Of a stretch of DNA of 64,000 nucleotides, positions 5,314-21,482 are shown in pieces; positions within the stretch are counted from its first letter, which is position 1, and each line of letters opens with the position of its first letter. This DNA comes from Kribbella turkmenica (GTDB lineage Bacteria > Actinomycetota > Actinomycetes > Propionibacteriales > Kribbellaceae). The DNA lies in assembly GCF_004348725.1 (NCBI RefSeq), contig NZ_SMKR01000010.1, positions 1 to 64,000 on the forward strand, read 5' to 3'. Under the pieces are notes generated by a model. That model searched no databases. It was not told the origin of the DNA and saw only the letters and a list, made by a program, of their open reading frames with translations. Both the position numbers and the translations under genes were made by a program.

Positions 5314-6066
5314 TCAGTGCCACTCGCCGCGTTCGATCAGCACGTCGCGGAGGATGTCGGTGCGGTCGGTGATCAGGCCGTCGACGCCGGCGTCGAGCAG
5401 GCGGTGCATGGTGGCGGGGTCGTCGATGGTCCACGGGTGGACCTGCTTGCCGGCGGCGTGCGCCCGCCTGATGAGTCCAGGGGTGAGGACGCGCAGCGGT
5501 CCGTAGCGCTCTGGGATCTGCAGGCAGCCGCCGCGGGACGGGAGCGGGAACGGGAGGAACCGGATCAGAGCCGTCTCCCAGTCGCCGTACCCGGTGCAGA
5601 GCGCGGGGCCCAGTTCGCGGCGAATCCGGCGAACCCGGGACTGCGAGAAGGACGAGACACAGACCCGGTCGATCGCGTCGGCCGCCCGCAGGACGGCGGC
5701 GGTCGGCAGCAGCCCGTTGTCGGCCTTGATGTCGAGGTTGAACTTCGTCTCCGGGAACTGCTCGAGCAACTCGTCCAGCCGGGGGATCGGCTCGTGCCCG
5801 TTGATCTTCGCCTTGCCGACCTCGGACCAGGGGAGCTCGGCGACCACGCCGGTCCGGTCGGTGACCCGGTCCAGGCGGTGGTCGTGGAAGGCGATGACGA
5901 CCCCGTCACTGGTTGCGTGCAGGTCGGTCTCGAGGTACCGGTAGCCGAGTTTCACGGCGTGCTCGAAGGCGCGCAGGGAATTCTCGTACCCGATGTTGTC
6001 CGGGTGCAGCGCGCCGCCACGGTGCGCCATCGCGATCGGCCCGACATGGTCGAGGTAGGGGTACAC
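5314..6066 (-). CDS. Glycerophosphodiester phosphodiesterase
   Basis: This 250-residue TIM-barrel enzyme carries the GDPD signature residues: MAHRGG near residue 13, ENS, ETDLHATSDG, and FHDHRLDRVT. It hydrolyses deacylated phospholipids to sn-glycerol 3-phosphate plus an alcohol. No signal peptide is seen, so it is probably cytosolic. The GTG at 6066 is the only start before the first conserved motif apart from the internal ATG at 6030. There is no Shine-Dalgarno sequence, and only about 26 bp separate it from the divergent aminotransferase start, which suggests a leaderless message. Confidence 0.92.
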   Translation of the reverse strand: MYPYLDHVGPIAMAHRGGALHPDNIGYENSLRAFEHAVKLGYRYLETDLHATSDGVVIAFHDHRLDRVTDRTGVVAELPWSEVGKAKINGHEPIPRLDELLEQFPETKFNLDIKADNGLLPTAAVLRAADAIDRVCVSSFSQSRVRRIRRELGPALCTGYGDWETALIRFLPFPLPSRGGCLQIPERYGPLRVLTPGLIRRAHAAGKQVHPWTIDDPATMHRLLDAGVDGLITDRTDILRDVLIERGEWH

Positions 6067-6092
6067 GTCGGAAAGTATGTACCGTTTGGGTG

Positions 6093-7223
6093 GTGACGGT
6101 ACTCAGCCCCCGCCCCGACCTGTGGACCCTCGACCCCGGCGTCCTGCACCTGAACCATGGTTCGTACGGCGGTGTGCCCCGCCGGACCCAGGATCTGATG
6201 GCCGCCTTGCGCGCCGAGACCGAGGCGAATCCGATGCTGTGGTTCCGCTCGGTCGCAGCCCGGCTGACCGCGAGCCGGCTCGCGTTGGCGTCGTACCTGG
6301 GGACCGACCCGGAGGGCTTCGCGCTGGTGCCGAACGCCAGCGCCGGCATCACCGCCGCGCTGGCCACGCTGCCGATCCCGGCGGGCAGCCGGATCGTGCT
6401 GACGAACCACGCGTACGGCGCCGTCCGGTACGCCGCCGAGCGGACCGCCCGGGCGCGCCAGGCCGACGTGGTCGTCGTCGACGTGCCGCTCGAGGCCGAC
6501 GACGAGACCGTGGTGTCGCTGATCTCGGCCGCGCTCGACCGGGCGTCCGTCCTGGTGGTGGACCAGATCAGCTCAGCCACCGCGATGGTGTTCCCGATCG
6601 CGGCGCTGGTCGGCGCCTGCCACGACCGCGGTGTCGCCGTCGTCGTGGACGGCGCGCACGCGCCCGGCCTGATCGATGCCCCGGCCGCCGACGGCGCCGA
6701 CTTCTGGACCGGCAACTTCCACAAGTGGCCGGCCTCTCCGCGGGCGACCGCCGGGCTCGTCGTCGCGGAGAAGTGGCGCCCGGCGACGCTGCCGCTGATC
6801 GTGTCGTGGTCGGAGTACGACGAGCGCCTGCCGGAGCGCTTCGACATGCAGGGCACCTACGACTACGTGCCCTGGATCGCCGCGCCCGAGTCCCTCCGGG
6901 TGCTGGCCGAGGTGCAGTGGCCGGTACGGCGTTCGCAGCTGAGCGACCTGGTCGACGAGGGCGCCCGGGTGGTCGCCAAGGCGCTCGGGACCGGGGTCGC
7001 CGAGATCGCCCGTCCGGCCGCCACGATGCGGCTGGTCGAGGTCCCGGCGACCGTCGACCTGACGGCCGGCGAAGCGTTGAAGGAACGGGTGTCACGCGAG
7101 TTGAAGGCGGAGATCACGCTGACCGGGTTCGACGGCCGTGGCTTCATCCGCCTGTCGGCGCACGCGTACAACAGCCTCCGGGACTACGAGTTGCTGGCCG
7201 AGCGGCTGCCGACGGTGCTCTGA
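6093..7223 (+). CDS. Class V aminotransferase (isopenicillin N epimerase-like)
   Basis: This PLP enzyme of about 376 residues opens LHLNHGSYGGVP, the substrate-phosphate region of the isopenicillin-epimerase/cysteine-desulfurase-like group. VVDGAHAPG (about residue 190) supplies the Asp that pairs with the pyridine nitrogen, and GNFHKWPASP holds the Schiff-base Lys. The reaction is unknown; close families include epimerases, lyases and desulfurases. The start is GTG at 6093 (GTG at 6090 is equally possible). The 3' end overlaps the convergent GntR gene by 40 bp. Confidence 0.85.
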   Translation: MTVLSPRPDLWTLDPGVLHLNHGSYGGVPRRTQDLMAALRAETEANPMLWFRSVAARLTASRLALASYLGTDPEGFALVPNASAGITAALATLPIPAGSRIVLTNHAYGAVRYAAERTARARQADVVVVDVPLEADDETVVSLISAALDRASVLVVDQISSATAMVFPIAALVGACHDRGVAVVVDGAHAPGLIDAPAADGADFWTGNFHKWPASPRATAGLVVAEKWRPATLPLIVSWSEYDERLPERFDMQGTYDYVPWIAAPESLRVLAEVQWPVRRSQLSDLVDEGARVVAKALGTGVAEIARPAATMRLVEVPATVDLTAGEALKERVSRELKAEITLTGFDGRGFIRLSAHAYNSLRDYELLAERLPTVL

Positions 7224-7876
7224 CGCTCGCTGAACGACCGCTCGCCGTGCACTGCCAGTTCGGCGAGGACGGCGTCCGGGTCGCCGGCCTCCACCAGATC
7301 GAGCAGCTTGCGGTGCCGCGCGACGTGTTCGTGCAGGTCTTCGTAGTAGTGCTCGCGGGCGTAGAGGTTGCGCGCCATGCACAGGAGCAGTTGCTGCTGC
7401 ACTGACGCGTAGGCCTCGATCAGCCGGCGGTGACCGGCGAGGGCGACCAGTGCGGAGTGAAAGCGGTGCCCGGCCTGGACGAGGCTGCCGCGGTCCTCGG
7501 CGTCGGCGCAGCGCTCCATCTCGGTCAGCGCCTCCTGCGCGTCCTTGAACCGGCCCTGGTCCTGGACCGGCACGCCGAGCTCGATCGCCAGCCGCTCCAG
7601 CGCGGTACGCAGGGTGAGGATCTCGAACACGTCCTGGTCCGTCAGCGTGGCCACCGTCGAACCGCGCCGCGGCCGGGTGACGATCAGGCCCTCCTGCTCC
7701 AGGATCCGCAGCGCCTCCCGCAGGGGAGGGCGGCTGATCCCGAGCTGCTCGGTCAGCCGGTCCTCGATCAGCCGCTCACCCTCGGCGAGTTCACCGGCCA
7801 GGATCATCCGCCGGATCGCGTCGACCGCGAGTTGCACCAGACTCGGCGACCGCAACTGTTCTGTCATAGCGCTCAT
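7184..7876 (-). CDS. GntR-family transcriptional regulator, FadR/FCD type
   Basis: The N-terminal winged helix (AIRRMILAGELAEGERLIEDR, then GISRPPLREALRILEQEGL, about residues 12-65) and an all-helical FCD ligand domain fit the family. The FCD metal-site residues appear as D in TLTDQDVFEI, the His in AGHRFHSAL, and HEHVARHRKLL. ATG 7876 is chosen because AGGG lies 5 nt upstream; GTG 7882 and ATG 7867 are alternatives. It is divergent from the catabolic operon at 7959, with a perfect palindrome between them, so it most likely represses that operon and responds to an organic-acid intermediate. Confidence 0.92.
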   Translation of the reverse strand: MSAMTEQLRSPSLVQLAVDAIRRMILAGELAEGERLIEDRLTEQLGISRPPLREALRILEQEGLIVTRPRRGSTVATLTDQDVFEILTLRTALERLAIELGVPVQDQGRFKDAQEALTEMERCADAEDRGSLVQAGHRFHSALVALAGHRRLIEAYASVQQQLLLCMARNLYAREHYYEDLHEHVARHRKLLDLVEAGDPDAVLAELAVHGERSFSERQSTVGSRSASNS

Positions 7877-7908
7877 TCTCACCCTGCGATCTTGTCAGCG
7901 TCGATTAT

Positions 7909-7924
7909 CTATTGTAGACAATAG
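7909..7924. promoter_or_regulatory. Probable GntR operator palindrome
   Basis: CTATTGT-AG-ACAATAG is a perfect 7-2-7 inverted repeat in an A/T-rich patch of an otherwise GC-rich gap. It sits 35 bp upstream of the dehydrogenase start and 33 bp from the regulator start. FadR/FCD-type GntR sites commonly have the form TNGT-N2-3-ACNA, which this matches. Confidence 0.75.
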
Positions 7925-7958
7925 TTCATAGACGAGAATCGGTGAACTGGAGGCGTCC

Positions 7959-8810
7959 GTGGCCGATGAGATCGATCGTTCGTCGCCGGTGGCCTTTGTC
8001 GGCCTCGGCAACCTGGGGCACCCGATGGCGCAGGCACTGGCAGGCGCCGGGTGGCGGCTCAAGGTGCATGACCGGGACCCCGGTCGCGCCCAGGGGCTGG
8101 ATGCCGAGGTGGCGACCGGTGCCGGGGACCTGGCGGACTGCCGGGTCGTCGCGCTGGCTGTGCCGGACGACGAGGCGGTGACCGCGTGGGTGGACGAGTT
8201 GGGCTCGCTGCTGACAGCGGGCTCGGTGTTCCTGGTCCACAGCACGATCCTTCCGGGTACGGCGAAACACCTTGCGCAGCAAGCGGAATCCGAGGGGCTC
8301 GCTCTCCTCGACGTGCCGGTCAGCGGAGGAGCGGAGCGGGCGCGGGCCGGTTCGCTGACCGTGGTGGCCGGCGGGCGGGCCGACGTGCTCGACCGAGTCC
8401 GGCCCGTGCTCGACACGGTCGCGGAGACCGTTCTTCACGTCGGGCCGTCCGGAGCGGGCGCCGCCGTGAAGTTGGCGAACCAGTTGATGATGTTCGCCGC
8501 ACTCGCCGGTGCCCAGGAGGCCCTGGAGTTGGCCGCGGCGTACGACGTACCCGAGCAGACCGTGCTCGAGGCCGTGTCGACCAGCACCGGCGACTCGTGG
8601 ATCACCCGCAACTGGGGCTTCTTCGACCGGGTCGCCGCGGCGTACGAGTCGGCCGGGACACCCGTGAAGGACCGGCCGTGGAGCAAGGACCTGTGGGACG
8701 TCGTCGCCGCTGCCCGCGACGCTGACGTGCAGGTCCCGGTCGCCGGTCTGCTCGCCCAGGATCTCGCAGAGAAGGTGGAAGCGCACGCCCGCAAGGGAGA
8801 CGTCTCGTGA
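7959..8810 (+). CDS. NAD(P)-dependent beta-hydroxyacid dehydrogenase (3-hydroxyisobutyrate dehydrogenase family)
   Basis: This 283-residue protein has the Rossmann start VAFVGLGNLGHPMAQAL (GxGxxG, about residues 11-26). DVPVSGGAERARAGSL is the substrate-binding block, and the catalytic Lys sits in GAAVKLANQLMM (about residue 170). The family oxidises beta-hydroxyacids such as 3-hydroxyisobutyrate, tartronate semialdehyde or D-glycerate. It is the first gene of the operon, with GTG start and GGAGG 8 nt upstream. Its stop overlaps the next gene's start by 4 bp. With the downstream CoA-transferase, crotonase-like and aldolase genes it probably oxidises a hydroxyacid intermediate. Confidence 0.9.
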   Translation: MADEIDRSSPVAFVGLGNLGHPMAQALAGAGWRLKVHDRDPGRAQGLDAEVATGAGDLADCRVVALAVPDDEAVTAWVDELGSLLTAGSVFLVHSTILPGTAKHLAQQAESEGLALLDVPVSGGAERARAGSLTVVAGGRADVLDRVRPVLDTVAETVLHVGPSGAGAAVKLANQLMMFAALAGAQEALELAAAYDVPEQTVLEAVSTSTGDSWITRNWGFFDRVAAAYESAGTPVKDRPWSKDLWDVVAAARDADVQVPVAGLLAQDLAEKVEAHARKGDVS

Positions 8811-9703
8811 AGTCCTCCCGTACCGGTCGCGAAGGCCTGACCGCCTACGTCTTCCTGAGTCCGTGGCTGATCGGGATCGTGCTGCTGACACTCGGCCCGA
8901 TGCTGTACTCGGCCTACCTCGCCTTCACCAACTACGACCTGCTCAGCCCGCCGCGCTGGATCGGTCTGGACAACTTCCGCCGGATGTTCACCGCGGACCC
9001 GCGCTACCTGTCGTCGGTCCGGGTGACGCTGGTGTACGTCGCCGTGTCCGTGCCGCTGCTCCTGATCGTGTCGATGGCGCTGGCACTGCTGCTGAACAAG
9101 GGCATCCGCTTCCTGTCCGGCTATCGCGCGCTGTTCTACCTGCCGTCGCTGATGGGCGCGAGCGTCGCCATCGCCGTGCTGTGGCGGCAAATTTTCGGCG
9201 GCAGCGGCCTGGTCAACCAGGTGCTCGGGGTGTTCGGCATCGAGCGCGGCAGCTGGGTGGGCAATCCCGGAACCGCGTTGTGGACGATCGTCACGCTGAA
9301 CCTCTGGGCCTTCGGCGCGACGATGATCATCTTCCTGGCGGGGCTGCGGCAGGTGCCGGTCGAGCTGCACGAGGCGGCCGCGGTCGACGGCGCCGGGCCC
9401 ATCCGCCGGTTCTTCAGCGTCACGCTGCCGCTGATGACCCCGCTGATCTTCTTCAACCTGCTGCTGGACACGATCCACGCCTTCCAGGCGTTCACCGGCG
9501 CGTTCGTGGTCAGCCGCGGCTCCGGAGGTCCGGCCGACTCGACGCTGTTCTACACGCTCTACCTGTACCAGCAGGGCTTCGCCGAGCTGAAGATGGGCTA
9601 CGCCTCCGCCATGGCGTGGGCCCTGGTGATCGTGCTCGCCGCCTTCACCGGCTTCCTCTTCCTGACCGCGAAACGCTGGGTCTACTACGGAGACGAACGA
9701 TGA
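8807..9703 (+). CDS. CUT1 ABC sugar-type permease, MalF-like
   Basis: This 298-residue inner-membrane protein has six predicted spans, starting AYVFLSPWLIGIVLL. The cytoplasmic EAA loop reads HEAAAVDGAGPI (about residue 188), which docks the shared ATPase. It starts with GTG overlapping the dehydrogenase stop and overlaps the next permease by 4 bp, so the two are translationally coupled. The class usually carries oligosaccharides or polyols; its location among acyl-CoA genes makes an unusual acid or sugar-acid substrate likely. Confidence 0.93.
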   Translation: MKSSRTGREGLTAYVFLSPWLIGIVLLTLGPMLYSAYLAFTNYDLLSPPRWIGLDNFRRMFTADPRYLSSVRVTLVYVAVSVPLLLIVSMALALLLNKGIRFLSGYRALFYLPSLMGASVAIAVLWRQIFGGSGLVNQVLGVFGIERGSWVGNPGTALWTIVTLNLWAFGATMIIFLAGLRQVPVELHEAAAVDGAGPIRRFFSVTLPLMTPLIFFNLLLDTIHAFQAFTGAFVVSRGSGGPADSTLFYTLYLYQQGFAELKMGYASAMAWALVIVLAAFTGFLFLTAKRWVYYGDER

Positions 9704-10581
9704 CGACCGTGTCGATCACCGCGCGCCCGCTGCTCGGCCGGCGTCGTACCCGCAACCCGCTCGTCATCGGGCTCGTCCGGCACGCCGTGCTGATCGCCGT
9801 GCTGCTGGTGATGCTGTACCCGGTGGTGTGGATGGTGGCGGCGTCGTTCCGGCCGACGGCCGAGGTGATGAACAGCCTCGGGCTCCTGAGCCGCAACTAC
9901 ACGCTCGACAACTACCGCAACGGCTGGAGCGCCGGGCAGCTCGACTTCTCCCGGTACTTCCTGAACTCGATCGCGATCACCGCGCTGTCGATCGCCGGGA
10001 ACCTGTTCGCCTGCTCGCTGACGGCGTACGCGTTCGCGCGGCTGGAGTTCCCGCTGAAGCGGGTGCTGTTCGGACTGCTGCTCGGCACCATGCTGCTGCC
10101 GTACCACGTAACGCTGGTGCCGCAGTACATCTTGTTCAACGAGCTGGCCTGGATGAACACCTACCTGCCGCTGGTGGTGCCGAAGTGGCTCGGCGCGGAG
10201 GCGTTCTTCATCTTCCTGATGGTCCAGTTCATCCGCACGCTGCCCCGGGAGCTCGACGACGCCGCCCGGATCGACGGCTGCGGACACTGGCGGACGTTCT
10301 CCCGGATCGTCATTCCGCTGTCACTGCCGGCGATCGGCACCACCGCGCTGTTCACCTTCATCAACAGCTGGAACGACTTCCTCGGCCCGCTGCTCTACCT
10401 GAATCGCCCCGAGCTGTGGACCGTCTCGCTCGGGCTGAACTCCTTCCTGGACGTGACCGGGGAGTCGGCGTACGGCTCGCTGTTCGCCATGTCCACGCTG
10501 GCGCTGGCACCGATCGTCGGCTTCTTCCTGGTCGCCCAGAAGCTGCTGATCGAGGGCGTCGCGACCACCGGCCTCAAGTAA
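9700..10581 (+). CDS. CUT1 ABC sugar-type permease, MalG-like
   Basis: This 293-residue partner permease has an N-terminal span (VLIAVLLVMLYPVVWMVAAS) and six spans in total. The EAA loop is DDAARIDGCG (about residue 190). The C-terminus IEGVATTGLK is typical of MalG-type subunits. ATG overlaps the TGA of the MalF-like gene. It should form the channel heterodimer with that subunit; the ATPase must come from elsewhere. Confidence 0.93.
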   Translation: MTTVSITARPLLGRRRTRNPLVIGLVRHAVLIAVLLVMLYPVVWMVAASFRPTAEVMNSLGLLSRNYTLDNYRNGWSAGQLDFSRYFLNSIAITALSIAGNLFACSLTAYAFARLEFPLKRVLFGLLLGTMLLPYHVTLVPQYILFNELAWMNTYLPLVVPKWLGAEAFFIFLMVQFIRTLPRELDDAARIDGCGHWRTFSRIVIPLSLPAIGTTALFTFINSWNDFLGPLLYLNRPELWTVSLGLNSFLDVTGESAYGSLFAMSTLALAPIVGFFLVAQKLLIEGVATTGLK

Positions 10582-10597
10582 CCCTGTGGAGATCCTG

Positions 10598-11932
10598 ATG
10601 AGAACACGACTTGGTACGACTGCCCTGGCCTGCGCGGCCCTCCTGGTTGCCGGGTGCAACGGCACGTCGGTCACCGACGACAGCGCCGGCGGCGGCGAGG
10701 GCCAGGACGGAAAGGGCGAGATCACCGGCAAGCTGCAGCTGACCTTCTGGGGCGGCGCGAACCGGGCCGCGAAGACGAACGCGGTCGCCGACATGTTCGT
10801 CAAGGAGCACGCCGGCGTCACCATCGACCGGCAGAACGCCGACTTCGGCAACTACTTCAACAAGCTGAACATCCAGGCCTCCAGCAAGACGCTGCCGTGC
10901 GTGATGCAGCTGCAGGGCCGCCAGCTGAACGACTACACCAAGCGCAAGGTGCTGCTGCCGCTGGACCCGATGATCGAGTCGGGCGCGATCAAGATCGACG
11001 ACATCCCGAAGGAGGTCGTCGACACCGGCCGCGGACCGGACGGCAAGCTCTACTTCCTCCCGTACGGCGCCGCGTACGACGCCGTCGGCGTGAACGAGAC
11101 GCTGGCCACGCAGGCCGGGGTCGGACTGCCGCCGGACAACTACACGTGGGCGCAGTACACGGACTGGATGACCCGTGCCTCGGCCAAGCTCCCGAAGGGG
11201 ACGTTCGCCGCCGGGTCGCGGGGCGGCCTGCCCAACTTCTTCATCGCCTACCAACTGGCCAACGGCAAGCAACTGTTCACCGAGGACGGCAAGCTCGGCT
11301 TCACCAAGGAGTCGCTGGTGGAGTACTGGACGATGTGGGAGAAGCTGCGCAAGGCCGGCACCTCGATGGGCGCCGACGCCCAGGCCGACGAGCCCGAGGG
11401 CGCCGAGCAGGGCTTCATCGCCCAGGGCAGGCTGCTGACCGACAGCATCCCGGGCAACGCCCTGACGCCCGCGTCCGGCACGCTGGCGACCAAGGGTGGC
11501 GGCCAGAAGCTGACCACGCTGCCGATGCCGTCCGGACCGTCCGGTGGCGGGAACGCGATGTTCACCTCGGGCTTCGCGATCCCGACCAACTGCGACAACG
11601 TGCCGACGGCGGCCGCCTTCATCGACTTCTTCACCAACGACCCCGAGGCCGGCGCCCTGTTCAAGTCCGACAACGGCGCCGCCACCAACCAGAAAGTGCT
11701 GCAGGCCCAGCTGGACGACCCCGAGCTGCCGGAGCTGAAGAAGCGCGAGCTGGCGCTGTACCAGCAGATCGTGGCCAAGAAGCCGCCGACGATCCTCTAC
11801 CCGCCCGGCTACCAGGCGACGTTCGAGTCCACCTTCACCCGGTCGTACGAGGAGATCGCGTTCGGGAAGAAGACGGTGGAGCAGGCGGCCGAATCGTTCT
11901 TCACCGAGGCGAATGCGGGGCTGGGCGGCTGA
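10598..11932 (+). CDS. Extracellular solute-binding lipoprotein, family 1
   Basis: The ATG at 10598 follows GGAGATCC and begins a lipoprotein signal peptide with lipobox LVAGC (Cys at about residue 22), a Gly/Ser/Asp-rich linker and then LTFWGGANR, the usual start of MalE-like folds. Mature size (about 420 residues) is normal for CUT1 receptors. A GTG 12 bp upstream is in frame but leaves no ribosome-binding site. It delivers substrate to the two permeases encoded just upstream. Its stop overlaps the next ATG (TGATG). Confidence 0.92.
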   Translation: MRTRLGTTALACAALLVAGCNGTSVTDDSAGGGEGQDGKGEITGKLQLTFWGGANRAAKTNAVADMFVKEHAGVTIDRQNADFGNYFNKLNIQASSKTLPCVMQLQGRQLNDYTKRKVLLPLDPMIESGAIKIDDIPKEVVDTGRGPDGKLYFLPYGAAYDAVGVNETLATQAGVGLPPDNYTWAQYTDWMTRASAKLPKGTFAAGSRGGLPNFFIAYQLANGKQLFTEDGKLGFTKESLVEYWTMWEKLRKAGTSMGADAQADEPEGAEQGFIAQGRLLTDSIPGNALTPASGTLATKGGGQKLTTLPMPSGPSGGGNAMFTSGFAIPTNCDNVPTAAAFIDFFTNDPEAGALFKSDNGAATNQKVLQAQLDDPELPELKKRELALYQQIVAKKPPTILYPPGYQATFESTFTRSYEEIAFGKKTVEQAAESFFTEANAGLGG

Positions 11933-13101
11933 TGGCTGTATCGACGGGGGCAACGGGGCCGGCCGGCGCCCTGCACGGACTGCGGGTGCTCGACCTCACC
12001 CAGGTGATGGCCGGGCCGTTCTGCACCATGCTGCTGGCCGACCTGGGCGCCGACGTGATCAAGATCGAGAACCCGCGCGCCGGTGACCAGACCCGGCGGT
12101 CGTGGGGGTACGCCGTCCACGGCGAGGACAGCCGGGCCTTCCTCGCCCTGAACCGGAACAAGCGCAGCGTTTGCCTCGACCTGAAGGAACCGGCCGGCCT
12201 GGCCGCGTTCCTGCGGCTGACCGAGACGGCCGACGTCGTGGTCGAGAACTTCCGGCCCGGGGTGACGAAGCGGCTGGGTGTCGACTACGAGGCGCTCGCC
12301 GCCCGCAACCCGCGGCTGATCTACGCCAGCGTCTCCGGCTTCGGCCAGACAGGTCCGTACGCCGAGCGCCCCGGGTACGACCTGATCGCGCAGGCGATGT
12401 CCGGCGTCATGAGCATCACCGGTACTCCGGACGGCACACCGGTGAAGTGTGGCCTGCCGGTCGGCGATCTCGGAGCGGGCATGTTCTGCGCCCTGGGCAT
12501 CGTCTCGGCCGTCCACGCCCGGGAACGGACAGGGGAAGGGCAGTACGTCGAGACGTCGCTGTTCGAGGCGGCGCTGGCGATGTCGGTGTGGGAGTCGACC
12601 GAGTACTGGGCGACGGGAAACGTCCCGCAGCCACTGGGCTCGGCCAACCGGATGTCGGCGCCGTACCAGGCACTGCGAACCAAGGACGGGTACCTGACCC
12701 TGGGCGCGAACAACGAGCGCCTGTGGCAACGACTGTGCGCGGCCCTGGAGCGCACCGACCTGCTCACCGATCCGCGCTTCGTCACGAACTCCGACCGGAT
12801 GGCGTACCGCGACGAACTGGCCGCCGAGCTGGAGGGGCGGCTGGCGACTGCCACCACCGACGAGTGGGTGACGTTGCTGCTCGACGCCGGTGTGCCGGCC
12901 GGACCGATCCGTGACTACCGGTACGTGCTGGACGAGGATCCGCACGTCCGTGCCCGCGGCATGGTGCAGGAGGTCGAGCACCCGGTCGAGGGCAAGGTCC
13001 GGGTGCTCGGGTCGCCGGTACGGATGAGCGGGACGCCGGCGCGGATCAGGCGGCATCCGCCCCTGCTCGGCGAACACACCGAGGAGGTCCTCGGCGAATG
13101 A
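11932..13101 (+). CDS. Family III CoA-transferase (CaiB/BaiF type)
   Basis: This 389-residue protein has the N-terminal Rossmann block GLRVLDLTQVMAGPFCTMLL and GADVIKIENP. LNRNKRSVCLDLK and VVENFRPGVTKRLG are family hallmarks. The catalytic Asp appears in PVGDLGAGMF (about residue 178). The enzyme moves CoA from a donor thioester to a carboxylic acid, with the acid bound through an aspartyl anhydride. It activates the operon's substrate or an intermediate to a CoA ester for the crotonase-like enzyme that follows with a 4-bp overlap. Acid substrate unknown. Confidence 0.93.
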   Translation: MAVSTGATGPAGALHGLRVLDLTQVMAGPFCTMLLADLGADVIKIENPRAGDQTRRSWGYAVHGEDSRAFLALNRNKRSVCLDLKEPAGLAAFLRLTETADVVVENFRPGVTKRLGVDYEALAARNPRLIYASVSGFGQTGPYAERPGYDLIAQAMSGVMSITGTPDGTPVKCGLPVGDLGAGMFCALGIVSAVHARERTGEGQYVETSLFEAALAMSVWESTEYWATGNVPQPLGSANRMSAPYQALRTKDGYLTLGANNERLWQRLCAALERTDLLTDPRFVTNSDRMAYRDELAAELEGRLATATTDEWVTLLLDAGVPAGPIRDYRYVLDEDPHVRARGMVQEVEHPVEGKVRVLGSPVRMSGTPARIRRHPPLLGEHTEEVLGE

Positions 13102-13871
13102 GTTCGCTGGAGGTCGAACGCGACGGTGCGATCCTGCGGCTGACGCTGTCCAACCCGGGGCGGCGCAACGCGATCACCTGGCCGATGTACGACTCCCTGC
13201 AGCAGGTCGAGCCGACGGTCGCGGCCGATCCTGGGATCCGGGTCGTCGTACTCCGCGGCGCGGGTGGAGAGGCGTTCGCGGCCGGGACGGACATCAGGCA
13301 GTTCACGGAATTCCGGACGGGCGAGCAGGGCGTCGAGTACGAGCACCGCGTCGGCCGGGTGATCGCCTCGCTGTTGCGGGTCAGAGTGCCGGTGATCGCG
13401 GTCGTGGAGGGACCAGCGGTCGGTGCCGGATTGACGTTGGCCGCGTGCAGTGACCTCGTGGTCGCCACGCCCGACGCGGTGTTCGGCGCACCGGTGGCGC
13501 GGACGCTGGGCAACACCTTGCCGCCTGCGGTCGTCGCGCGGCTGCACCAGCGACTCGGGGCCGGGCGGACGACGGCGATGCTGCTGACCGCTCGGTTGCT
13601 GTCAGCAACAGAGGCGGCGAGTGCGGGCCTGGTGGCGGACGTGGTCGAGCGGGACGGGCTGGACGCCCATGTCGCCGAGTTGCTCGACCGGATCTGCGCG
13701 AACGCGCCGCTCACTCTCGCCTCGCTGAAGGAGATCGAACGGCGGGTCCTGCGGGACGGGGCCGCGGCCGAGGCGGACGACGTACTGGCCGCTGTGTACG
13801 GCAGCCGCGACTTCCAGGCCGGGGTGGCGGCGTTCCTCAGCAAACAACGAGCCGAGTGGGAGGGACGATGA
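13098..13871 (+). CDS. Crotonase-fold enoyl-CoA hydratase/isomerase family protein
   Basis: This 257-residue crotonase-fold protein keeps both CoA and oxyanion-hole segments: FAAGTDIRQF (about residue 60) and VEGPAVGAGLTLAACSDL (about residues 102-119). The two glutamates used by classical hydratases appear replaced: GAGLTLA where GGGCELA is usual, and FGAPVARTLG where F(G)xPExxxG is usual. So hydration of a 2-enoyl-CoA is not assured; isomerisation, hydrolysis or retro-aldol chemistry is possible. It overlaps the CoA-transferase and amidohydrolase genes by 4 bp each, so it clearly belongs to the operon. Confidence 0.88.
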   Translation: MSSLEVERDGAILRLTLSNPGRRNAITWPMYDSLQQVEPTVAADPGIRVVVLRGAGGEAFAAGTDIRQFTEFRTGEQGVEYEHRVGRVIASLLRVRVPVIAVVEGPAVGAGLTLAACSDLVVATPDAVFGAPVARTLGNTLPPAVVARLHQRLGAGRTTAMLLTARLLSATEAASAGLVADVVERDGLDAHVAELLDRICANAPLTLASLKEIERRVLRDGAAAEADDVLAAVYGSRDFQAGVAAFLSKQRAEWEGR

Positions 13872-14704
13872 CGGTCATCGACGCGCACCACCACTTCTGG
13901 CGGGTGGCCGCACAGGAGCAGCCGTGGCGCGACGACCGGCACGACGCCATCGCCCGGGACTACACACCGGACGACCTCGCCGCCGAGCTGGCGGCCGCCG
14001 GTGTCGACCAGACGGTCTTGGTCCAGTCCGTCGACGAGCCCGCGGAGAACGACCGGCTGCTTCGGTACGCCGCCGAAGCACCCTACGTCGGCGCGGTCGT
14101 GGGCTGGCTGCCGTTGCGGGATCCCGCCGCCGCGAGAGCCGAGTGGAAGCGGATCGGCGCCGGCTGCAACGGCGTCCGGTGCCTGGTCGGACGTGATCCA
14201 CTCGAGTGGTTGAACACGCCGGACTCGGTCGAACTCTTCACCGAACTGGCGGCCGCCGGCGTGAGCTGGGACGTCGTACCGGTGACAGCTGAGCAGACCT
14301 CGGCTGTGATCCGTCTGGCCCGGGCGGTTCCGGACCTGCGGATCGTCGTCGACCATCTCGGCCGGCCACCGCTCGACACCGGAGGCTGGGAGCCGTGGGC
14401 GTCGCAGGTGGCTCAGCTCGCCGCCTCGCCGCGGGTCGCGCTGAAGGTGTCGCTCGGGATCGACCTGCTCACCGCACTGCCCGCCTGGCCGGAGCAGCTC
14501 GACCGGTACGTCGGCTGGGTGTCCGAATGCTTCGGCGCGGACCGGCTCATGCTCGCCTCGAACTGGCCGGTCGTGCTGTTGAAGGCCTCGTACCACCAGG
14601 CGTGGCACGAGCTGCGCTCGACGGTCGAGCGCTCTGTGGACGATCTCGCGGCGGTGCTCGGAGGCACCGCCGCTCACTACTACCGAACGAAGGGTCAGCC
14701 CTGA
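13868..14704 (+). CDS. Amidohydrolase family 2 (lactonase-like TIM barrel)
   Basis: This 278-residue protein opens VIDAHHHFWRV, the metal-binding HxH of the amidohydrolase-2 family. IVVDHLGRPP (about residue 162) and LMLASNWPV (about residue 233) match L-fuconolactonase, L-rhamnonolactonase and pyrone-dicarboxylate hydrolase relatives, where SNWP-type motifs carry the catalytic Asp or its substitute. It probably opens a lactone or cyclic ester formed from the imported compound. The ATG at 13868 overlaps the preceding TGA. Substrate inferred only from family. Confidence 0.88.
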   Translation: MTVIDAHHHFWRVAAQEQPWRDDRHDAIARDYTPDDLAAELAAAGVDQTVLVQSVDEPAENDRLLRYAAEAPYVGAVVGWLPLRDPAAARAEWKRIGAGCNGVRCLVGRDPLEWLNTPDSVELFTELAAAGVSWDVVPVTAEQTSAVIRLARAVPDLRIVVDHLGRPPLDTGGWEPWASQVAQLAASPRVALKVSLGIDLLTALPAWPEQLDRYVGWVSECFGADRLMLASNWPVVLLKASYHQAWHELRSTVERSVDDLAAVLGGTAAHYYRTKGQP

Positions 14705-15441
14705 TGACAGAAACTGCCAACCCGAACGACCTTTCCAGCCTGTACAAGCACCTGCGCGTGGTGGACGTCGCCGACGCGCTCGACGGCATCGGGTACTTCG
14801 ACATCGGCCTGATGTCGCCCGACGTCCGGCCGTTGTGGCTCGGGATGAAGTTCTGGGGCCGGGCGGCCACCATCCGCGCCGTCCCGTCGAACCGGCCGAT
14901 GTGGAGGCTCGACAGCACCCAGGACATCGTCGAGGCGCACCGGATCTGGTTCGAGGAGACCGGCAACGTGAAGCTGCCGGCCGGGCTGGAGCCCGGTCAC
15001 GTGGTGGTGATGGACGCCGGTGGCGGCAAGGAGGTCGGCTTCTGGGGCTCGGAGAACGGGATGGGCGCGGTCAAGGCCGGAGCGGCCGGCATCGTCACCG
15101 ACGGGTACTGCCGCGACACCGCCGAGATCGTCGCCCAGCGGACGCCGATCTGCTCTCGGTCGCGCGGCCGGACGATCATCCCGGGCCGGATCAAGGTGGT
15201 GGAGACCCAGACCACGATCTCCTGCGGCGGCACCCAGGTGAATCCCGGTGACATGGTCGGCTGCGACGACGACGGCGTGATCGTCGTACCGGCGGAGGTC
15301 GCCGACGAGGTCGCGGTGCACGCCCGGGCCATCCTGCTCGCCGACATGCGCGCACGCCGCAAGCATTACGAGGCGCTCGGCATCACGCCGGACAGCTCGG
15401 TCGACCACGAGGCGGTCGAGGCGTACTACGCGAGCGTCTGA
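14704..15441 (+). CDS. RraA-like aldolase/decarboxylase
   Basis: This 245-residue protein of the RraA/HMG-aldolase family carries AGAAGIVTDGYCRDTAEI (about residues 125-142), whose Arg-Asp pair holds the divalent metal and pyruvyl group. VVDVADALDG is the usual N-terminal block. Family enzymes cleave 4-hydroxy-4-methyl-2-oxoglutarate to pyruvate or decarboxylate oxaloacetate; some non-enzymatic members inhibit RNase E. In an operon with a lactonase-like enzyme, CoA-transferase and hydroxyacid dehydrogenase, an aldol cleavage role is most plausible. Last gene of the operon, followed by a strong hairpin. Confidence 0.88.
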   Translation: MTETANPNDLSSLYKHLRVVDVADALDGIGYFDIGLMSPDVRPLWLGMKFWGRAATIRAVPSNRPMWRLDSTQDIVEAHRIWFEETGNVKLPAGLEPGHVVVMDAGGGKEVGFWGSENGMGAVKAGAAGIVTDGYCRDTAEIVAQRTPICSRSRGRTIIPGRIKVVETQTTISCGGTQVNPGDMVGCDDDGVIVVPAEVADEVAVHARAILLADMRARRKHYEALGITPDSSVDHEAVEAYYASV

Positions 15442-15450
15442 GACGACGGT

Positions 15451-15482
15451 GCCGGCGGCGGTCGCGGTCGACCGCCGCCGGC
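15451..15482. terminator. Bidirectional hairpin terminator
   Basis: GCCGGCGGCGGTC (15451-15463) and GACCGCCGCCGGC (15470-15482) form a perfect 13-bp stem with a 6-nt loop. It fills the gap between two convergent operons ending at 15441 and 15487, so it can serve both. Confidence 0.85.
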
Positions 15483-15486: not shown

Positions 15487-16338
15487 TCAGCCCTTGATCG
15501 CGCCCGAGGTCATGCCGGCCACGATCCGGCGGTTGAAGAACAGGAACATGATCAGCGGCGGGATCGTGATCAGCAGGATGTTCATGAACAGCAGGTTGTA
15601 CTGCGTGCTGAACTGACTCTGGAAGTTGTACAGGGTCAGCTGGACGGTCGCGTTCTGGTCACCGGGCAGGAAGTACAGCGGGTTCACGAAGTCGTTGAAC
15701 ACGTTCACCGACTGGACCACCACGACGGTGATGATGACCGATCTGAGCAGCGGGAAGATCACCCGGAAGAACAGCCGCAACGGGCCGGCGCCGTCGATGA
15801 TCGCCGCTTCGTCGAGCTCGCGCGGGATGGTCGCGACGAACGCCCGGAACAGCAGGATGCAGAACGACAGCCCGAACGCGATCTCGATCAGGATCAGCCC
15901 CGGCATCGTCCGGAACAACCCGAGCTGCTGCAGCACCCAGATCGTCGGCACGACGGCCGGCGGGATGATCAGCCCGGACAGCACCAGGAAGTTGATGAAC
16001 GGGTTCCACCGGCTCTTGCGGCGTTGCAGCACGAACCCGGCCATCGCCGCCAGCACGACCATGCCGGTCACACTGGCCACGGTCAGAATCGTGCTGTTGA
16101 TGAAGGCGATCACCAGCATGTAGTCGCGGGCCTCGAGCACCTCGACGAAATTCTGCACGATCCGGAACTGGTGCGGCCAGGCGAAGTCCAGGTCCGCCGA
16201 CTGCTGCCGGTCCTTCACCGCGGTGAGCACGATGAAGACGAACGGGATGACGAACACCACGACCGACGACACGATCGCGATCGCGCTCAGCAGGTAGTTC
16301 CGGCCCGGCTTGTGGTTGACGAGCTCAGCGGTGCTCAC
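15487..16338 (-). CDS. CUT1 ABC permease, MalG-like (rhamnoside cluster)
   Basis: This 283-residue six-span permease has the EAA loop LDEAAIIDGAGPLRLF (about residue 185) and the C-terminus GMTSGAIKG. The GTG at 16338 overlaps the stop of the MalF-like gene by 4 bp; longer upstream in-frame extensions run antisense through that gene's frame and are rejected. It should transport rhamnose-containing fragments released by the rhamnosidase encoded upstream. Confidence 0.92.
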   Translation of the reverse strand: MSTAELVNHKPGRNYLLSAIAIVSSVVVFVIPFVFIVLTAVKDRQQSADLDFAWPHQFRIVQNFVEVLEARDYMLVIAFINSTILTVASVTGMVVLAAMAGFVLQRRKSRWNPFINFLVLSGLIIPPAVVPTIWVLQQLGLFRTMPGLILIEIAFGLSFCILLFRAFVATIPRELDEAAIIDGAGPLRLFFRVIFPLLRSVIITVVVVQSVNVFNDFVNPLYFLPGDQNATVQLTLYNFQSQFSTQYNLLFMNILLITIPPLIMFLFFNRRIVAGMTSGAIKG

Positions 16339-17261
16339 AGGTCCACCTCCCGGCGGTTCAGGAACCAGTTCAGCGGCAGCACGATCGCCGTGACCACCAG
16401 GAACAGGATCACGTTGCCGGCCGTGGACAGGCCGTAGAACCCGGCCTGGTACTGCTTGTAGATCACTGACGCGATCACGTCCGAGGTGAAGCCCGGACCA
16501 CCGCGGGTCGTCGCCCAGATCAGCTCGAACGACCGCAGGCCGCCGATCAGCGACAAGATGATGACGGTGACCGTGGCCGGCTTGCACAGCGGCAGCACGA
16601 TCCGGCGGAACGACTCCCACGAGCCGGCTCCGTCGACCCGGGCGGCTTCCATGTACTCCCGGGGGATCGACACGATGCCGGCGATGTAGATCAGCGTCGC
16701 CAGGCCGACACCTTTCCAGACGTCGATCAGGGCGATCGACATCAGCGCCCAGCTCGGGTCGGTCAGCCAGCCGGGACCGTCGATCCCGATCACGCCGAGC
16801 GCCCCGTTGATCAGGCCGCGTTCGGGGTTCATCAGCACCTGGAAGGTCAGGCCGACCCCGATGCTGCTGACCAGCACCGGGAAGAACACGACCGACCGCA
16901 GGTACCCGCGCCCGATGATCCGGGAGGTCAGCAGGACGGCGAGCAGCAGCCCGAGCACCACCTTCGACCCCGACGTCACCACCGCGAACACCAACGTGTT
17001 CGTGAAGCCCTTGACCAGCGCGGGCTCCTGGAAGAACATCACGAAGTTGTCCAGCCCGATGAACGTCGAGTCGAACAGCGTCCACCGGGTCAGGCTGTAG
17101 TAGAACGACGCGAACGTCGGGATCAGGAACAGCACGCTGTAGAGCAGCGCCGTCGGCAGGTAGAACCAGAACGAGTACGGCGTGTAGAACCTCTTCCCGG
17201 CCGCCTGCGCGGCCGGGGTCGAGTCTGTACGAGACTTCGGCCTGGCCGAGGTGATGGTCAT
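16335..17261 (-). CDS. CUT1 ABC permease, MalF-like (rhamnoside cluster)
   Basis: This 308-residue protein has an about 35-residue cytoplasmic N-terminus followed by LPTALLYSVLFLIPTFASF and five more spans. The EAA loop is MEAARVDGAGSWESF (about residue 208). It lies 4 bp after the binding-protein gene. It forms the channel pair with the MalG-like subunit encoded just downstream. Confidence 0.93.
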   Translation of the reverse strand: MTITSARPKSRTDSTPAAQAAGKRFYTPYSFWFYLPTALLYSVLFLIPTFASFYYSLTRWTLFDSTFIGLDNFVMFFQEPALVKGFTNTLVFAVVTSGSKVVLGLLLAVLLTSRIIGRGYLRSVVFFPVLVSSIGVGLTFQVLMNPERGLINGALGVIGIDGPGWLTDPSWALMSIALIDVWKGVGLATLIYIAGIVSIPREYMEAARVDGAGSWESFRRIVLPLCKPATVTVIILSLIGGLRSFELIWATTRGGPGFTSDVIASVIYKQYQAGFYGLSTAGNVILFLVVTAIVLPLNWFLNRREVDL

Positions 17262-17265
17262 GGAA

Positions 17266-18597
17266 TCACCAGCCTGCCAGGCCTAGTTGCTGTGCCTGCT
17301 TCTTCACATCCTCGTCGTACCGCGCCGCGCCGTCCTTGGCCTTGCGGATCCCGGAGCCGACCTCGACGGTGATCTGCTCGAGCGACGGCCCCTTCACCGG
17401 CGACAGGAACTCCAGCGCCAGGCTGGAGCCACCCTCCTTGTCCAGGTACGGCTGCATGTCCTTGATCGCCTGCGGTACGTCGGCCGGCAGCTCACACCCC
17501 TTGACCGCGTACGGCCCGGTCGGCACACCCGCGCTGGCCAGCGACTTGCACCCGTCGGGGCTGGCCACGAAGCCGAGGAACTTCTTCGCCGCCTCCAGCT
17601 TGTCGCCGGTCGTGGTGTTCGGGATGTAGATGCCGCCCGGAGTCCACACGGTCAGGCCGTTCTTGGTCGCGTCGTCACCAGGCAGCGCGAACAGGCCGAC
17701 GTCCTTGGCCGCGTTCGGATTGGTCGCGATCATGTCGTTGACCACGCCGGACAGGATCGGGTAGTGCGCGCCCTTGCCGGTGGCAAGCATCTTCAGCCCG
17801 TCCGGCAGCTTCGCCGAGGCGAAGTCCTTGTTCTGGTAGCCGAGGTCGTGGACCTGCTGGGTGTGCTCGAACCCCTTCAGGGCGGCCGGCGAGCTCGCGT
17901 ACTTCGCCTGGTTCTTGGTGTACTTGTCGGCGAAGTCCGGCTCGGCGGCGGCCACGTTGTGGAAGTCGCCGAGGACGAACAGCTGCGACGTCCAGGTCTC
18001 GCCGTACGTCTGGATCACCGGCGCGACCCCGCCCCCGGCCGCCTTGATCTTGGCGTTGTTGGCGATGAACTCCGCCCAGGTCTTCGGCACCTGCAGCCCG
18101 AGCTTGGTGTAGACGGGGATGCTGTACAGGACCGCGCCGCCCATGAACCCGCCGGACGGGACGCCGTAGACCTTGTCGCCCGACGTCACCGTCTTCCTGA
18201 AGTTCTCGTCCAGGTCCCCGATGTAGGGCTCGTCGTTGATCGAGGTGAGGTTCTTGTCCGGGGCGATCGCCTGGAACAGCGACCCGGTGTTGTAGGCGAA
18301 CACGTCGGTCATGTCGCCGGTGGACAGCCGGGTCTTGACGATGTTGTCACCCTCGCTGCCGGACGGCCGTGTCTCCAGGTTGATGGTGATGCCAGGGTTC
18401 TTGGCGGTGAAGTCCTTGCTGAGCTGCTGGGCCTCCTTGAGATCCTGCTCCTGGTTGCCGATCAGATAGGTGATCTCGATCGAGCCGCCACCGCCCGAGT
18501 CGTCACTGGAGCCGAGGCTGCCCGCGCTGCACGCGGTCAGGGCGAGCGAGCAGACCGCGAGGACGGCCGGTCCTCTCGTACCTGGGCGGAACGTCAT
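17266..18597 (-). CDS. Extracellular solute-binding lipoprotein, family 1 (rhamnoside cluster)
   Basis: This 443-residue lipoprotein has signal peptide MTFRPGTRGPAVLAVCSLAL with lipobox LTAC, a Ser/Asp/Gly linker and the receptor core. GGAGG lies 5 nt before the ATG at 18597 and only 2 nt before the ATG at 18600, so 18597 is preferred. It lies 62 bp after the rhamnosidase gene and directly before the permeases, so it likely binds the rhamnosidase's product or oligosaccharide substrate. Confidence 0.91.
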   Translation of the reverse strand: MTFRPGTRGPAVLAVCSLALTACSAGSLGSSDDSGGGGSIEITYLIGNQEQDLKEAQQLSKDFTAKNPGITINLETRPSGSEGDNIVKTRLSTGDMTDVFAYNTGSLFQAIAPDKNLTSINDEPYIGDLDENFRKTVTSGDKVYGVPSGGFMGGAVLYSIPVYTKLGLQVPKTWAEFIANNAKIKAAGGGVAPVIQTYGETWTSQLFVLGDFHNVAAAEPDFADKYTKNQAKYASSPAALKGFEHTQQVHDLGYQNKDFASAKLPDGLKMLATGKGAHYPILSGVVNDMIATNPNAAKDVGLFALPGDDATKNGLTVWTPGGIYIPNTTTGDKLEAAKKFLGFVASPDGCKSLASAGVPTGPYAVKGCELPADVPQAIKDMQPYLDKEGGSSLALEFLSPVKGPSLEQITVEVGSGIRKAKDGAARYDEDVKKQAQQLGLAGW

Positions 18598-18659
18598 CAT
18601 GACCTCCAAGGGGTGTTTCTTCAGGGCATCTGCATCGGGGCGGGGGTCGGTCGGCCGGG

Positions 18660-21482
18660 TCAGGTGCTGGTGTCGAGGACGGCGTCCAGCCTGGCCTGCA
18701 GGGCTTCGGCGCCGGGGCTGAAGCCACGCGGGCTGATCGCTTCCACGAGCTGGGCGGCCGGCTGGTCCAGGTACCGCTCGAGCTTGGCCGCGAGCTCGGC
18801 GTCGTCGGCGACGATGTCGTTGTCCTCGGCGGCGGCAACGATCGTGGCCCAGCTGGTCTCGTGGTCCATCAGTTGCCGGATGGTCGGGTCCGCGGTCAGT
18901 GCCGGCGTCGCCGCGGCCGGGTCGTCGGCGGTCCACTCGTGCGTGCCGTGGCCGGCCTCGACCGGCGCGTCCTCACCCGGTACGTCGACCCGGGCCCGCG
19001 AGCCGACCGGCACGGTGACGCTGAGCCGGACCTGGCCGTCGGCCCGTGTCCACGAGACCGCGGCCTCGCCGTACGGGGTGAGGTGCTTGGCAGAGGCGCG
19101 GGTGAGGTGCGAGGTGAACAGCGGGCGGACGACGATCGTCCGGTAGCCCGGGTCGCCGGCGGCGAGCCCCGCGACGCGGCGGTGCATCCAGTCGGCGACC
19201 GCGCCGAGGGCGTAGTGGTTGAACGACGTCATCTGGCCGGGGTTGATGCTGCCGTCGGGCAGCATGCTGTCCCAGCGTTCCCAGACCGTCGTAGCGCCCA
19301 TCGTCACTGCGTACAGCCAAGAGGGGCAGCCTGTCTCTAGCAGAAGCCGGTAGGCGAGGTCCGGATGTCCGGAATCGGCCAGCGCATCGGCCACCAGCGG
19401 CGTACCGACGAATCCCGTGCTGATCCGGAAGCCGGCCGTCCGGACCAGGTCGGCGAGGCGCCCGGCGGCGCGCTTGCGCTGGCTCTCGGTCGGCAGCAGC
19501 GCCCACTGGAGGGCGAGGGCGTAGTTTGTCGCCGCGTCGCTCAGTACGCGGCCGCCCTCGGTGGTGTACTCGGCCGCGAAGGCCTGCCGGACGCGGGCGG
19601 CCAGGTCGGCGTACTCGCGGGCCAGTTCGGCGTCGCCGACGACCTCCGCAGCCTTGCCGACGACCTCGGCCGAGCGGGCCAGGTGCGCGGTGGCCAGGAC
19701 GTCGGGGTCGGCCTTCGCGCGGAAGGGATTGTCCGGCGGCGCGGTCGGGTCGAGCCAGTCGCCGAACTGGAACCCGCCGGACCACAGCAGGCCCTCGCCG
19801 GCCAGGTCGGCCATCCGGTCCACCCAGGCCCGCATGCTCGGCAGTTGCCGGGCGAGCAGCGCGGCGTCACCGGTGCGCTCGTAGATCACCCACGGCACGA
19901 TCGTTGCCGCGTCACCCCATGCGGCCGTGGCCGGCCCGCTGTGCCGGAGAATGTCCGGCACGACGAACGGCACCGAGCCGTCCTTCTGCTGCTCGACCGC
20001 CAGATCGGCGAGCCAGTTGGTGAGGAACCCGGCGGTGTCGAACAGGAAGCTGGCCGTGGGGGAGAAGACCTGGATGTCACCGGTCCAGCCGAGCCGCTCG
20101 TCCCGCTGCGGGCAGTCGGTCGGGACGTCGACGAAGTTGCCGCGCATGCCCCACACGACGTTCTCGTGGAAGCGGTTGAGCAGCTCGTGTGACGACTCGA
20201 ACCAGCCGGTCCGGCGCAGGTCCGACCCGACCACGACGGCCTCCAGGTCAGCGAGTCGCAGGTCGTCGACTCCGGTCACCTCGGCGTAGCGGAAGCCGTG
20301 GAAGGTGAGCGGCGAGTCGAGGACAACCTCGTCCGGTCCGGCGAGCACGTAGGCGTCGGTGGCCTTGGCGGTGCGCAGCGGCCGGACGCCGAGCTCGCCG
20401 TTCTCGAGCACTTCGGCGTGCCGCAGGACGACCTCGTCGCCCTCGGCGCCGCCACGGACCGTCAACCGGACCCGCCCGACGACGTTCTGGCCGAAGTCGA
20501 CCAGGGTCTTGCCGGACGGCGACGTACTGATCTCGACCGCGGGCACGACCTCGGTGATCCGGACGGGCGGTCCGTCGGGCGCGACCAGCACGTTCAGGTC
20601 GGCGTCGAGGACGTCCACCCCGACGGCCTCACCAAGGGTGCGGCGGAGGTCGGTGCGCTGGCCGTCGTAGATGTCGTCGGCGAGGATTCCGCTCTCGCGG
20701 GCCGTCCAGGTGTCGTCGCTGCCGAACGTGTGCACCTGGCCGTCGGCGGTGGTGACCTCGAGCTGGGCGAGGACCGCGAGACGCTCGCCGTACAGGGAGT
20801 TCTTGCCGTGGAAGCCGAGCCGGCCGCGGTACCAGCCGTTGCCGACCAGGAACTCGAGCCGGTTCTCACCCGGCCGGACCAGACCGGTCACGTCGTAGGT
20901 CTGGTAGCGCAGCCGGGCCTGGTACGCCGTCCAACCGGGCGCGAGCTCCTCGTCGCCGATCCGCTCACCGTTGAGCTCAGGCAGGTAGATGCCGTAGGCC
21001 GTCGAGTAGAGGCGAGCCTTGACGACGTCGGCGGGAAGCTCGAACGCACCGGCGACCAGGGGAGCGGGCGAACCGTTGCGGTTGCCCCGAGGACTCACGA
21101 ACCGGGCGGTCCAGTCGGCCGCGCTCAGCAGACCGGCTTCGACGGTCGCTGGTCCGCTCCACTCGCTCCAGTCGTCTCCCGAGACATCACTGCCGCGAAC
21201 CCGAATGCGGACCTCGGCCGCCTGGCGCGAGGTCAGCGGGTCGCCCGGCCACGGGACCAGCACCTGATCAGGGGACTGAACCGTGTACACCTGTGCCCTG
21301 GCGGTCTCCGCTCCGCTGCCCGGAACACGGATCTCGACCTCGTACGCCGTCTGCGTGTACCCGGCGTCAGCGGCCGGGATCTGCCACGACAGCCTGGGCG
21401 TCGCGGTGCCGATGCCCAGGACGGGCCCGGCGTCGGTGCGGTGCTCGAAGCGGAGCTGAGTGGGAGCGGCGAGGTTCGACAT
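18660..21482 (-). CDS. Alpha-L-rhamnosidase, GH78
   Basis: This 940-residue enzyme has the GH78 order: N-terminal beta domains (LSWQIPAADAGYTQTAYEV; GNGWYRGRLGFHG), then the (alpha/alpha)6 barrel with DCPQRDERLGWTGDIQ (about residue 460), whose Asp/Glu residues are catalytic in the family. TTVWERWDS and TSFNHYALGAVADWMHRRV follow near residue 750. It cleaves terminal alpha-L-rhamnose from glycosides. No signal peptide is seen, so it probably acts in the cytoplasm on imported rhamnosides. About 65 extra C-terminal residues, acidic and helical, follow the last beta domain and are unusual. First gene of the operon, divergent from the AraC gene. Confidence 0.94.
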   Translation of the reverse strand: MSNLAAPTQLRFEHRTDAGPVLGIGTATPRLSWQIPAADAGYTQTAYEVEIRVPGSGAETARAQVYTVQSPDQVLVPWPGDPLTSRQAAEVRIRVRGSDVSGDDWSEWSGPATVEAGLLSAADWTARFVSPRGNRNGSPAPLVAGAFELPADVVKARLYSTAYGIYLPELNGERIGDEELAPGWTAYQARLRYQTYDVTGLVRPGENRLEFLVGNGWYRGRLGFHGKNSLYGERLAVLAQLEVTTADGQVHTFGSDDTWTARESGILADDIYDGQRTDLRRTLGEAVGVDVLDADLNVLVAPDGPPVRITEVVPAVEISTSPSGKTLVDFGQNVVGRVRLTVRGGAEGDEVVLRHAEVLENGELGVRPLRTAKATDAYVLAGPDEVVLDSPLTFHGFRYAEVTGVDDLRLADLEAVVVGSDLRRTGWFESSHELLNRFHENVVWGMRGNFVDVPTDCPQRDERLGWTGDIQVFSPTASFLFDTAGFLTNWLADLAVEQQKDGSVPFVVPDILRHSGPATAAWGDAATIVPWVIYERTGDAALLARQLPSMRAWVDRMADLAGEGLLWSGGFQFGDWLDPTAPPDNPFRAKADPDVLATAHLARSAEVVGKAAEVVGDAELAREYADLAARVRQAFAAEYTTEGGRVLSDAATNYALALQWALLPTESQRKRAAGRLADLVRTAGFRISTGFVGTPLVADALADSGHPDLAYRLLLETGCPSWLYAVTMGATTVWERWDSMLPDGSINPGQMTSFNHYALGAVADWMHRRVAGLAAGDPGYRTIVVRPLFTSHLTRASAKHLTPYGEAAVSWTRADGQVRLSVTVPVGSRARVDVPGEDAPVEAGHGTHEWTADDPAAATPALTADPTIRQLMDHETSWATIVAAAEDNDIVADDAELAAKLERYLDQPAAQLVEAISPRGFSPGAEALQARLDAVLDTST

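Follow-up and report, generated by a model that had tools for sequence, protein, structure and literature searches.

A putative GntR-controlled catabolic regulon joining a sugar-type ABC importer to CoA-transferase, crotonase-fold and RraA-like proteins in Kribbella turkmenica

We analysed a window of 64,000 nucleotides from the soil actinobacterium Kribbella turkmenica (positions 1 to 64,000 of contig NZ_SMKR01000010.1, assembly GCF_004348725.1; contig C11 of a GC-rich genome of 7.4 Mb), focusing on eight genes at 7959-15441 and on the regulatory gene divergent to them. Together these probably form a single regulon, controlled by GntR, for the breakdown of a sugar-like solute that carries a carboxylate. 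Beyond the window, the gene set is kept in 12 more loci and across at least four families, and an operator-like box accompanies its members even where they are unlinked. The features of the locus are as follows.

7184..7882, minus strand: GntR-family regulator with FCD domain, divergent to the operon (Pfam FCD 65.8 bits, GntR 62.6 bits)
7909..7924, no strand: operator-like palindrome CTATTGTAGACAATAG between regulator and operon (14/16 positions palindromic)
7959..8810, plus strand: 3-hydroxyisobutyrate dehydrogenase (HIBADH)-type, beta-hydroxyacid dehydrogenase (Pfam NAD_binding_2, NAD_binding_11; NCBIfam HIBADH)
8807..9703, plus strand: CUT1-type permease, MalF/UgpA-like (BPD_transp_1; UgpA model 120.8 bits)
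9700..10581, plus strand: CUT1-type permease, MalG/UgpE-like (BPD_transp_1; UgpE model 127.2 bits)
10598..11932, plus strand: lipoprotein solute-binding protein, closest solved relative YesO (SBP_bac_8; YesO 5z6b)
11932..13101, plus strand: family III CoA-transferase (CoA_transf_3, 478 bits)
13098..13871, plus strand: crotonase-fold protein, PRK06144 subfamily (NF004796, 293.7 bits, cut-off 272)
13868..14704, plus strand: COG3618-type amidohydrolase, lactonase-like (Amidohydro_2; ASNWP in place of SDWP)
14704..15441, plus strand: RraA-like class II aldolase/decarboxylase candidate (RraA-like, 90.7 bits)
15451..15482, no strand: GC-rich perfect inverted repeat of 14 bp, candidate terminator shared by two operons and lacking a T run (read from the sequence)

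The eight genes have intact frames and run head to tail on the same strand, with successive junctions of -4, -4, +16, -1, -4, -4 and -1 bp. Gene families were called by Pfam, and all eight operon proteins exceeded the Pfam cut-offs (NAD_binding_2/NAD_binding_11, BPD_transp_1 twice, SBP_bac_8, CoA_transf_3, ECH_1, Amidohydro_2 and RraA-like). An initial annotation had placed eight genes of these families here, and all are present, with every family confirmed. Its statement that nearly all of them overlap by 1-4 bp holds for six of the seven junctions (1 or 4 bp), the other being the gap of 16 bp, and the importer that it described as fused into the operon is encoded by separate, adjacent genes. 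To that account we add the GntR-FCD gene on the opposite strand and the operator-like site.

The regulator and the eight genes recur with their order unchanged in eight other genomes of the genus (L049-L056; 69-98% identity per gene), where the MalF/UgpA-like permease is 92-98% identical, RraA 89-97% and the GntR ortholog, in the same place, 84-92%. The gene set is also found in two Pseudonocardia genomes, with rraA first (L031, L032), and in two genomes of genus g16, family f2 (L057, L058). Because gene content is kept in eight same-genus, two Pseudonocardia and two other-family genomes, the grouping goes beyond chance, and the eight genes are one conserved unit. Full-length rraA at no less than 89% identity is carried by 9 of 38 same-genus genomes, the window's genome included. 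In a class-wide sample of 395 genomes, RraA was matched at 1e-30 in one besides the window's own (39% identity), and from this scarcity we take the system to be rare. A tenth same-genus genome (G019) has lost the operon as a block with the flanking genes retained; at the junction, RraA codons 126-245 abut GntR codons 74-232 (L088:9749-10587).

The operator-like box ties the set together more closely. Upstream of the operon it is identical in 9/9 same-genus loci and near-identical in distant loci. The sequence TTGTAGACAATA or a close variant lies 5' of the operon in all same-genus loci, of rraA in Pseudonocardia and of hibadh in g16, between gntR and hibadh in L093 and between rraA and gntR in L059; it also precedes the unlinked rraA of five family f4 genomes and, in one genome (G050), the unlinked coaT-ech pair (CoA-transferase and crotonase). 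Across 148 genomes, which are related so that counts are not independent, 20 of the 21 copies of the 12-mer TTGTAGACAATA fall at these loci; a reversed control pattern was found twice, and from base composition some 0.03 copies would be expected in each genome. When one mismatch was tolerated in the 16 carrier genomes, the g16 sites and one f4 site were gained at loci already known, together with a lone extra in G058, and a genome-wide search at the same tolerance found no additional regulon members in the nearest relatives. Judging by position and conservation, the GntR protein probably binds this box. Because the common box marks the genes even where they are unlinked, we conclude that the genes of the eight-gene set are likely to make up one regulon and one pathway; other explanations for a box on unlinked members are hard to find. 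HIBADH, CoA-transferase and crotonase families are numerous in these genomes, and unrelated catabolic enzymes could in principle have gathered on a common promoter. With a gene set constant over at least four families and a box repeated at unlinked copies, however, such a loose neighbourhood is strongly disfavoured and very improbable. The earlier proposal that transporter, dehydrogenase, CoA-transferase, crotonase and RraA serve one pathway thus gains support, its lactone-opening step excepted. Separately, a class-wide scan returned five matches of KTTGTAGACAAYAR (L120-L124) in other genomes, outside the known loci.

Split forms of the set occur in other lineages. Five f4 genomes (G043, G045, G048, G056 and G058) carry a stand-alone RraA (67-73% identical) and a separate CoA-transferase-crotonase pair, and identities to the window across the split loci are about 65% for GntR, 58% for HIBADH and 45-52% for CoA-transferase and crotonase. 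In L093 and L095, hibadh is divergent to gntR-sbp-permA-permB-coaT-ech (regulator, binding protein, two permeases, CoA-transferase and crotonase). The dehydrogenase, binding-protein, permease and crotonase genes are likewise together in L096, where the CoA-transferase was placed by a separate search. In G050, rraA-hibadh-amh, with the amidohydrolase gene amh, faces gntR-sbp-permA-permB, with coaT-ech elsewhere (L059, L092). No close amidohydrolase ortholog was found in five g7 genomes with the split form, the best matches there being about 35-37% identical, at paralog level. Because these five genomes keep the rest, the amidohydrolase does not belong to the core and lactone opening is dispensable. 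By sequence comparison, the core set is the importer, the beta-hydroxyacid dehydrogenase, the CoA-transferase, the crotonase and RraA, with the amidohydrolase added in some lineages.

The importer has the make-up of a CUT1 system, with one MalF-like and one MalG-like permease beside a binding protein of the sugar type. Pfam detected no ATP-binding subunit of the MalK/MsiK type within 7184-15441, and a UgpC/MsiK-type ATPase above the family cut-off is encoded elsewhere in the genome (G000:C301). In CUT1 systems this subunit need not lie in the operon, as it is often shared; in B. subtilis, sharing of one ATPase encoded elsewhere is known (PMC5730181). The best sequence match of the binding protein is YesO (5z6b, E = 4.8e-32). 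Its AlphaFold model, of low confidence (predicted local distance difference test, pLDDT, 62.5) and used for fold only, matched 5z6b with Z 34.6 against 28.9 for the next non-YesO structure, and the oligogalacturonide receptor 2uvh was also among the best matches. YesO, a rhamnogalacturonan receptor, binds a uronate-bearing trisaccharide, whose carboxylate is held by Trp20, Arg25 and Asn254. Counted along the phmmer alignment, W51 and R56 of the binding protein correspond to Trp20 and Arg25; both are invariant in 12/12 receptor sequences, and the relative 4ovj has Glu at the Arg position. This YesO-like pair favours, without proving, an acidic ligand other than the one YesO binds. Of the imported acid or lactone envisaged in the initial annotation, it is the acid that the carboxylate pair favours.

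Several results weigh against a regulon for one carboxylated, sugar-like solute. Along the same alignment, the YesO uronate-site residues Asp75, Asn127, Tyr252, Asn254 and Gln255 are not kept, and since these are most of the other residues of that site, the ligand would differ from YesO's. The f4 receptor is a different one, about 27% identical to the window's, and its nearest solved relatives are saccharide receptors. Equivalog models were all below cut-off for the operon proteins, and the reactions are read from family alone.

A neutral substrate was also considered in view of the neighbouring genes. Beyond the inverted repeat at 15451..15482, which sits between the two operons, lies a convergent ABC operon (15487-21740). 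It encodes a second importer of the CUT1 type, made up of permeases and a binding protein, and what looks by eye like a GH78 alpha-L-rhamnosidase. This neighbour, and a receptor nearest to that for rhamnogalacturonan, would suit uptake of a plant saccharide or glycoside of the ordinary, neutral kind, coordinated with the rhamnosidase and second importer, with the CoA enzymes acting on a downstream acid moiety. We consider this unlikely. The operon contains no glycosidase; L049 and L050 have the operon with the rhamnosidase unmatched within the 20 kb examined, none of the downstream genes is matched in L052, and G019 retains rhamnosidase and importer where the operon is lost. The 15487-21740 operon is kept in most same-genus loci, its presence or absence independent of the eight-gene operon, and an obligatory link to the GH78 cluster was rejected because each occurs without the other. 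On the other flank, upstream of gntR, an aminotransferase class V-like open reading frame (5913-7223, by eye) is matched in all same-genus loci tested except L052, the operon-less locus included.

We then examined the enzymes for the reactions that the regulon could support. The dehydrogenase had HIBADH as its best NCBIfam model, at 139 bits, below the cut-off of 291.6, and the motifs with established roles in that family, GLGNLG (GxGxxG), PVSGG and KLANQ/KLCNQ with the catalytic Lys, are present in all aligned sequences. The CoA-transferase belongs to family III over its full length (CoA_transf_3 over residues 14-383), and PGYDLIAQ, which holds the GYD motif with its conserved Asp, is kept in all aligned CoA-transferases; the Asp of this motif has a functional role in family III enzymes. 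Its nearest models are the mesaconate, glutarate and HMG CoA-transferases, all far below equivalog cut-offs (top NCBIfam score 349 bits vs 700 for mesaconate CoA-transferase), and the comparison with SUGCT gave E = 5e-88. In rat enoyl-CoA hydratase the catalytic residues are Glu144 and Glu164. Both positions are without Glu in 15/15 aligned crotonase sequences, and because both hydratase glutamates are absent, a hydratase role cannot be assumed. In RraA, the RDxxE motif (RDTAE/RDTGE/RDTDE) is present in all orthologs, with the aldolase-type Arg and the metal-binding Asp kept; in HMG/CHA aldolase the corresponding roles in the RraA-fold active site fall to Arg123 and Asp124 (PMC5065237).

The amidohydrolase has L-fucono-1,5-lactonase as its best model (130.7 bits vs a cut-off of 400), and its structural model matched 4dlf with Z 33.0 over 273 residues (2.6 A, 28% identity). 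These matches suit a scheme along the lines of the initial annotation, in which a lactone is imported and opened, activated with CoA, hydrated and cleaved by the aldolase. However, Asn232 (ASNWP, not SDWP) is invariant in 14/14 sequences, at the beta-8 position that holds Asp in 4dlf and 2ffi. The D248N replacement in LigI probably blocks turnover. A related lactonase, the 2-pyrone-4,6-dicarboxylate hydrolase of Sphingomonas, is present in the PDB as its D248N mutant in a complex, according to the title of entry 4dia. Because a natural Asn occupies the beta-8 position in 6uvz (Bifidobacterium), the Asn-type amidohydrolase may still be active. Given a crotonase without its hydratase glutamates, the Asp-to-Asn change in all amidohydrolase orthologs and the lack of close orthologs in the five g7 genomes, the scheme as a whole is unlikely, and lactone opening does not stand as a general pathway step.

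For the regulon for a carboxylated, sugar-like solute, we infer an order of steps purely from family chemistry. The YesO-like receptor would bind a carboxylate-bearing compound, with uptake powered by the shared MsiK-type ATPase. In lineages that have it, the amidohydrolase may act on a cyclic or ester form. The HIBADH-type enzyme would oxidise the hydroxyl beta to the carboxylate, and the CoA-transferase would activate the acid, with succinyl-CoA or acetyl-CoA as the probable donor. The glutamate-less crotonase might then, in place of hydration, act as a lyase, hydrolase, decarboxylase or isomerase, and RraA would cleave a 4-hydroxy-2-oxo acid or decarboxylate an oxaloacetate-like product to pyruvate. 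A pathway intermediate would free TTGTAGACAATA of GntR. We put forward, tentatively, a route in actinobacteria that has not been described before and serves an acidic compound resembling a sugar: CUT1 uptake would lead into oxidation of a beta-hydroxyacid, transfer of CoA by the family III enzyme, a crotonase step other than hydration and aldol cleavage by RraA, all controlled by a single dedicated GntR. Isosaccharinate, pantoate, tulipalin-type lactones and methylerythronate, which were substrate guesses from chemistry alone, were dropped for want of evidence.

The gene set is real and seems undescribed. Literature searches, with most subscription journals outside their scope, found no account of this gene combination; what is not new is a CoA-ester sugar-acid route with a lactonase, already known for deoxyribonate. 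Oxidative deoxyribonate catabolism in Pseudomonas simiae and Klebsiella michiganensis is a precedent for CoA-dependent sugar-acid catabolism: the cluster likewise pairs a lactonase with a sugar-acid dehydrogenase and works through CoA intermediates, in Klebsiella with a CoA-transferase as well, but the available part of that account describes no RraA, HIBADH-type or crotonase gene (PMC6365646). Conversely, none of the nine proteins here has the Pfam family of a beta-keto acid cleavage enzyme or thiolase, a trait of the deoxyribonate pathway. The carnitine operon sets a family III CoA-transferase (CaiB) beside a crotonase (CaiD), as the eight-gene operon does. L057 and L092 add a gamma-carbonic-anhydrase-type protein that scores on CaiE/PaaY models, in the manner of CaiB/CaiD/CaiE; however, the carnitine model, with its cut-off of 413, gives the CoA-transferase here 125.6 bits, and genes for a carnitine transporter or dehydrogenase are missing from the operon. 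YesOPQ, the rhamnogalacturonide importer of Bacillus subtilis, is alike in receptor fold, Trp/Arg carboxylate contacts and a shared ATPase encoded elsewhere, but differs in the remaining uronate site, and the eight-gene operon lacks pectin enzymes. HMG/CHA aldolase of protocatechuate/gallate catabolism shares the RraA fold and the Arg-Asp active-site pair, whereas the RraA here is longer (245 aa), scores 61.5 bits against a cut-off of 304.5 and lies in an operon without ring-cleavage genes. L-fucono-1,5-lactonase and COG3618 proteins share the fold, the HxH motif and the DH(L/A) histidine with the amidohydrolase, in which the beta-8 Asp is Asn.

If the proposed steps are true, a CoA-linked branch served by a sugar-type ABC importer would be added to sugar-acid catabolism, and functions would be provided for the PRK06144 glutamate-less crotonases, the Asn-type COG3618 protein and the long RraA-like group, which now have family names only. 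With the operator-like box as a marker, new genomes can readily be screened for the regulon, and with so few genes the question is open to testing.

Additional genes in related loci offer hints to the pathway. The gamma-carbonic-anhydrase-type genes near CoA-transferase and crotonase lie at L057:9033-9554 and L092:10884-11408; an FAH-family protein is encoded at L031 and L057, a phosphotriesterase-family protein at L059 and a serine hydrolase at L031. G050 also contains another RraA-linked cluster (L089:7467-13931), with permeases 51-64% identical, a binding protein, a GntR regulator, an Ldh_2 dehydrogenase and a second RraA, a hint that pairings of CUT1 importers with RraA aldolases form a broader class.

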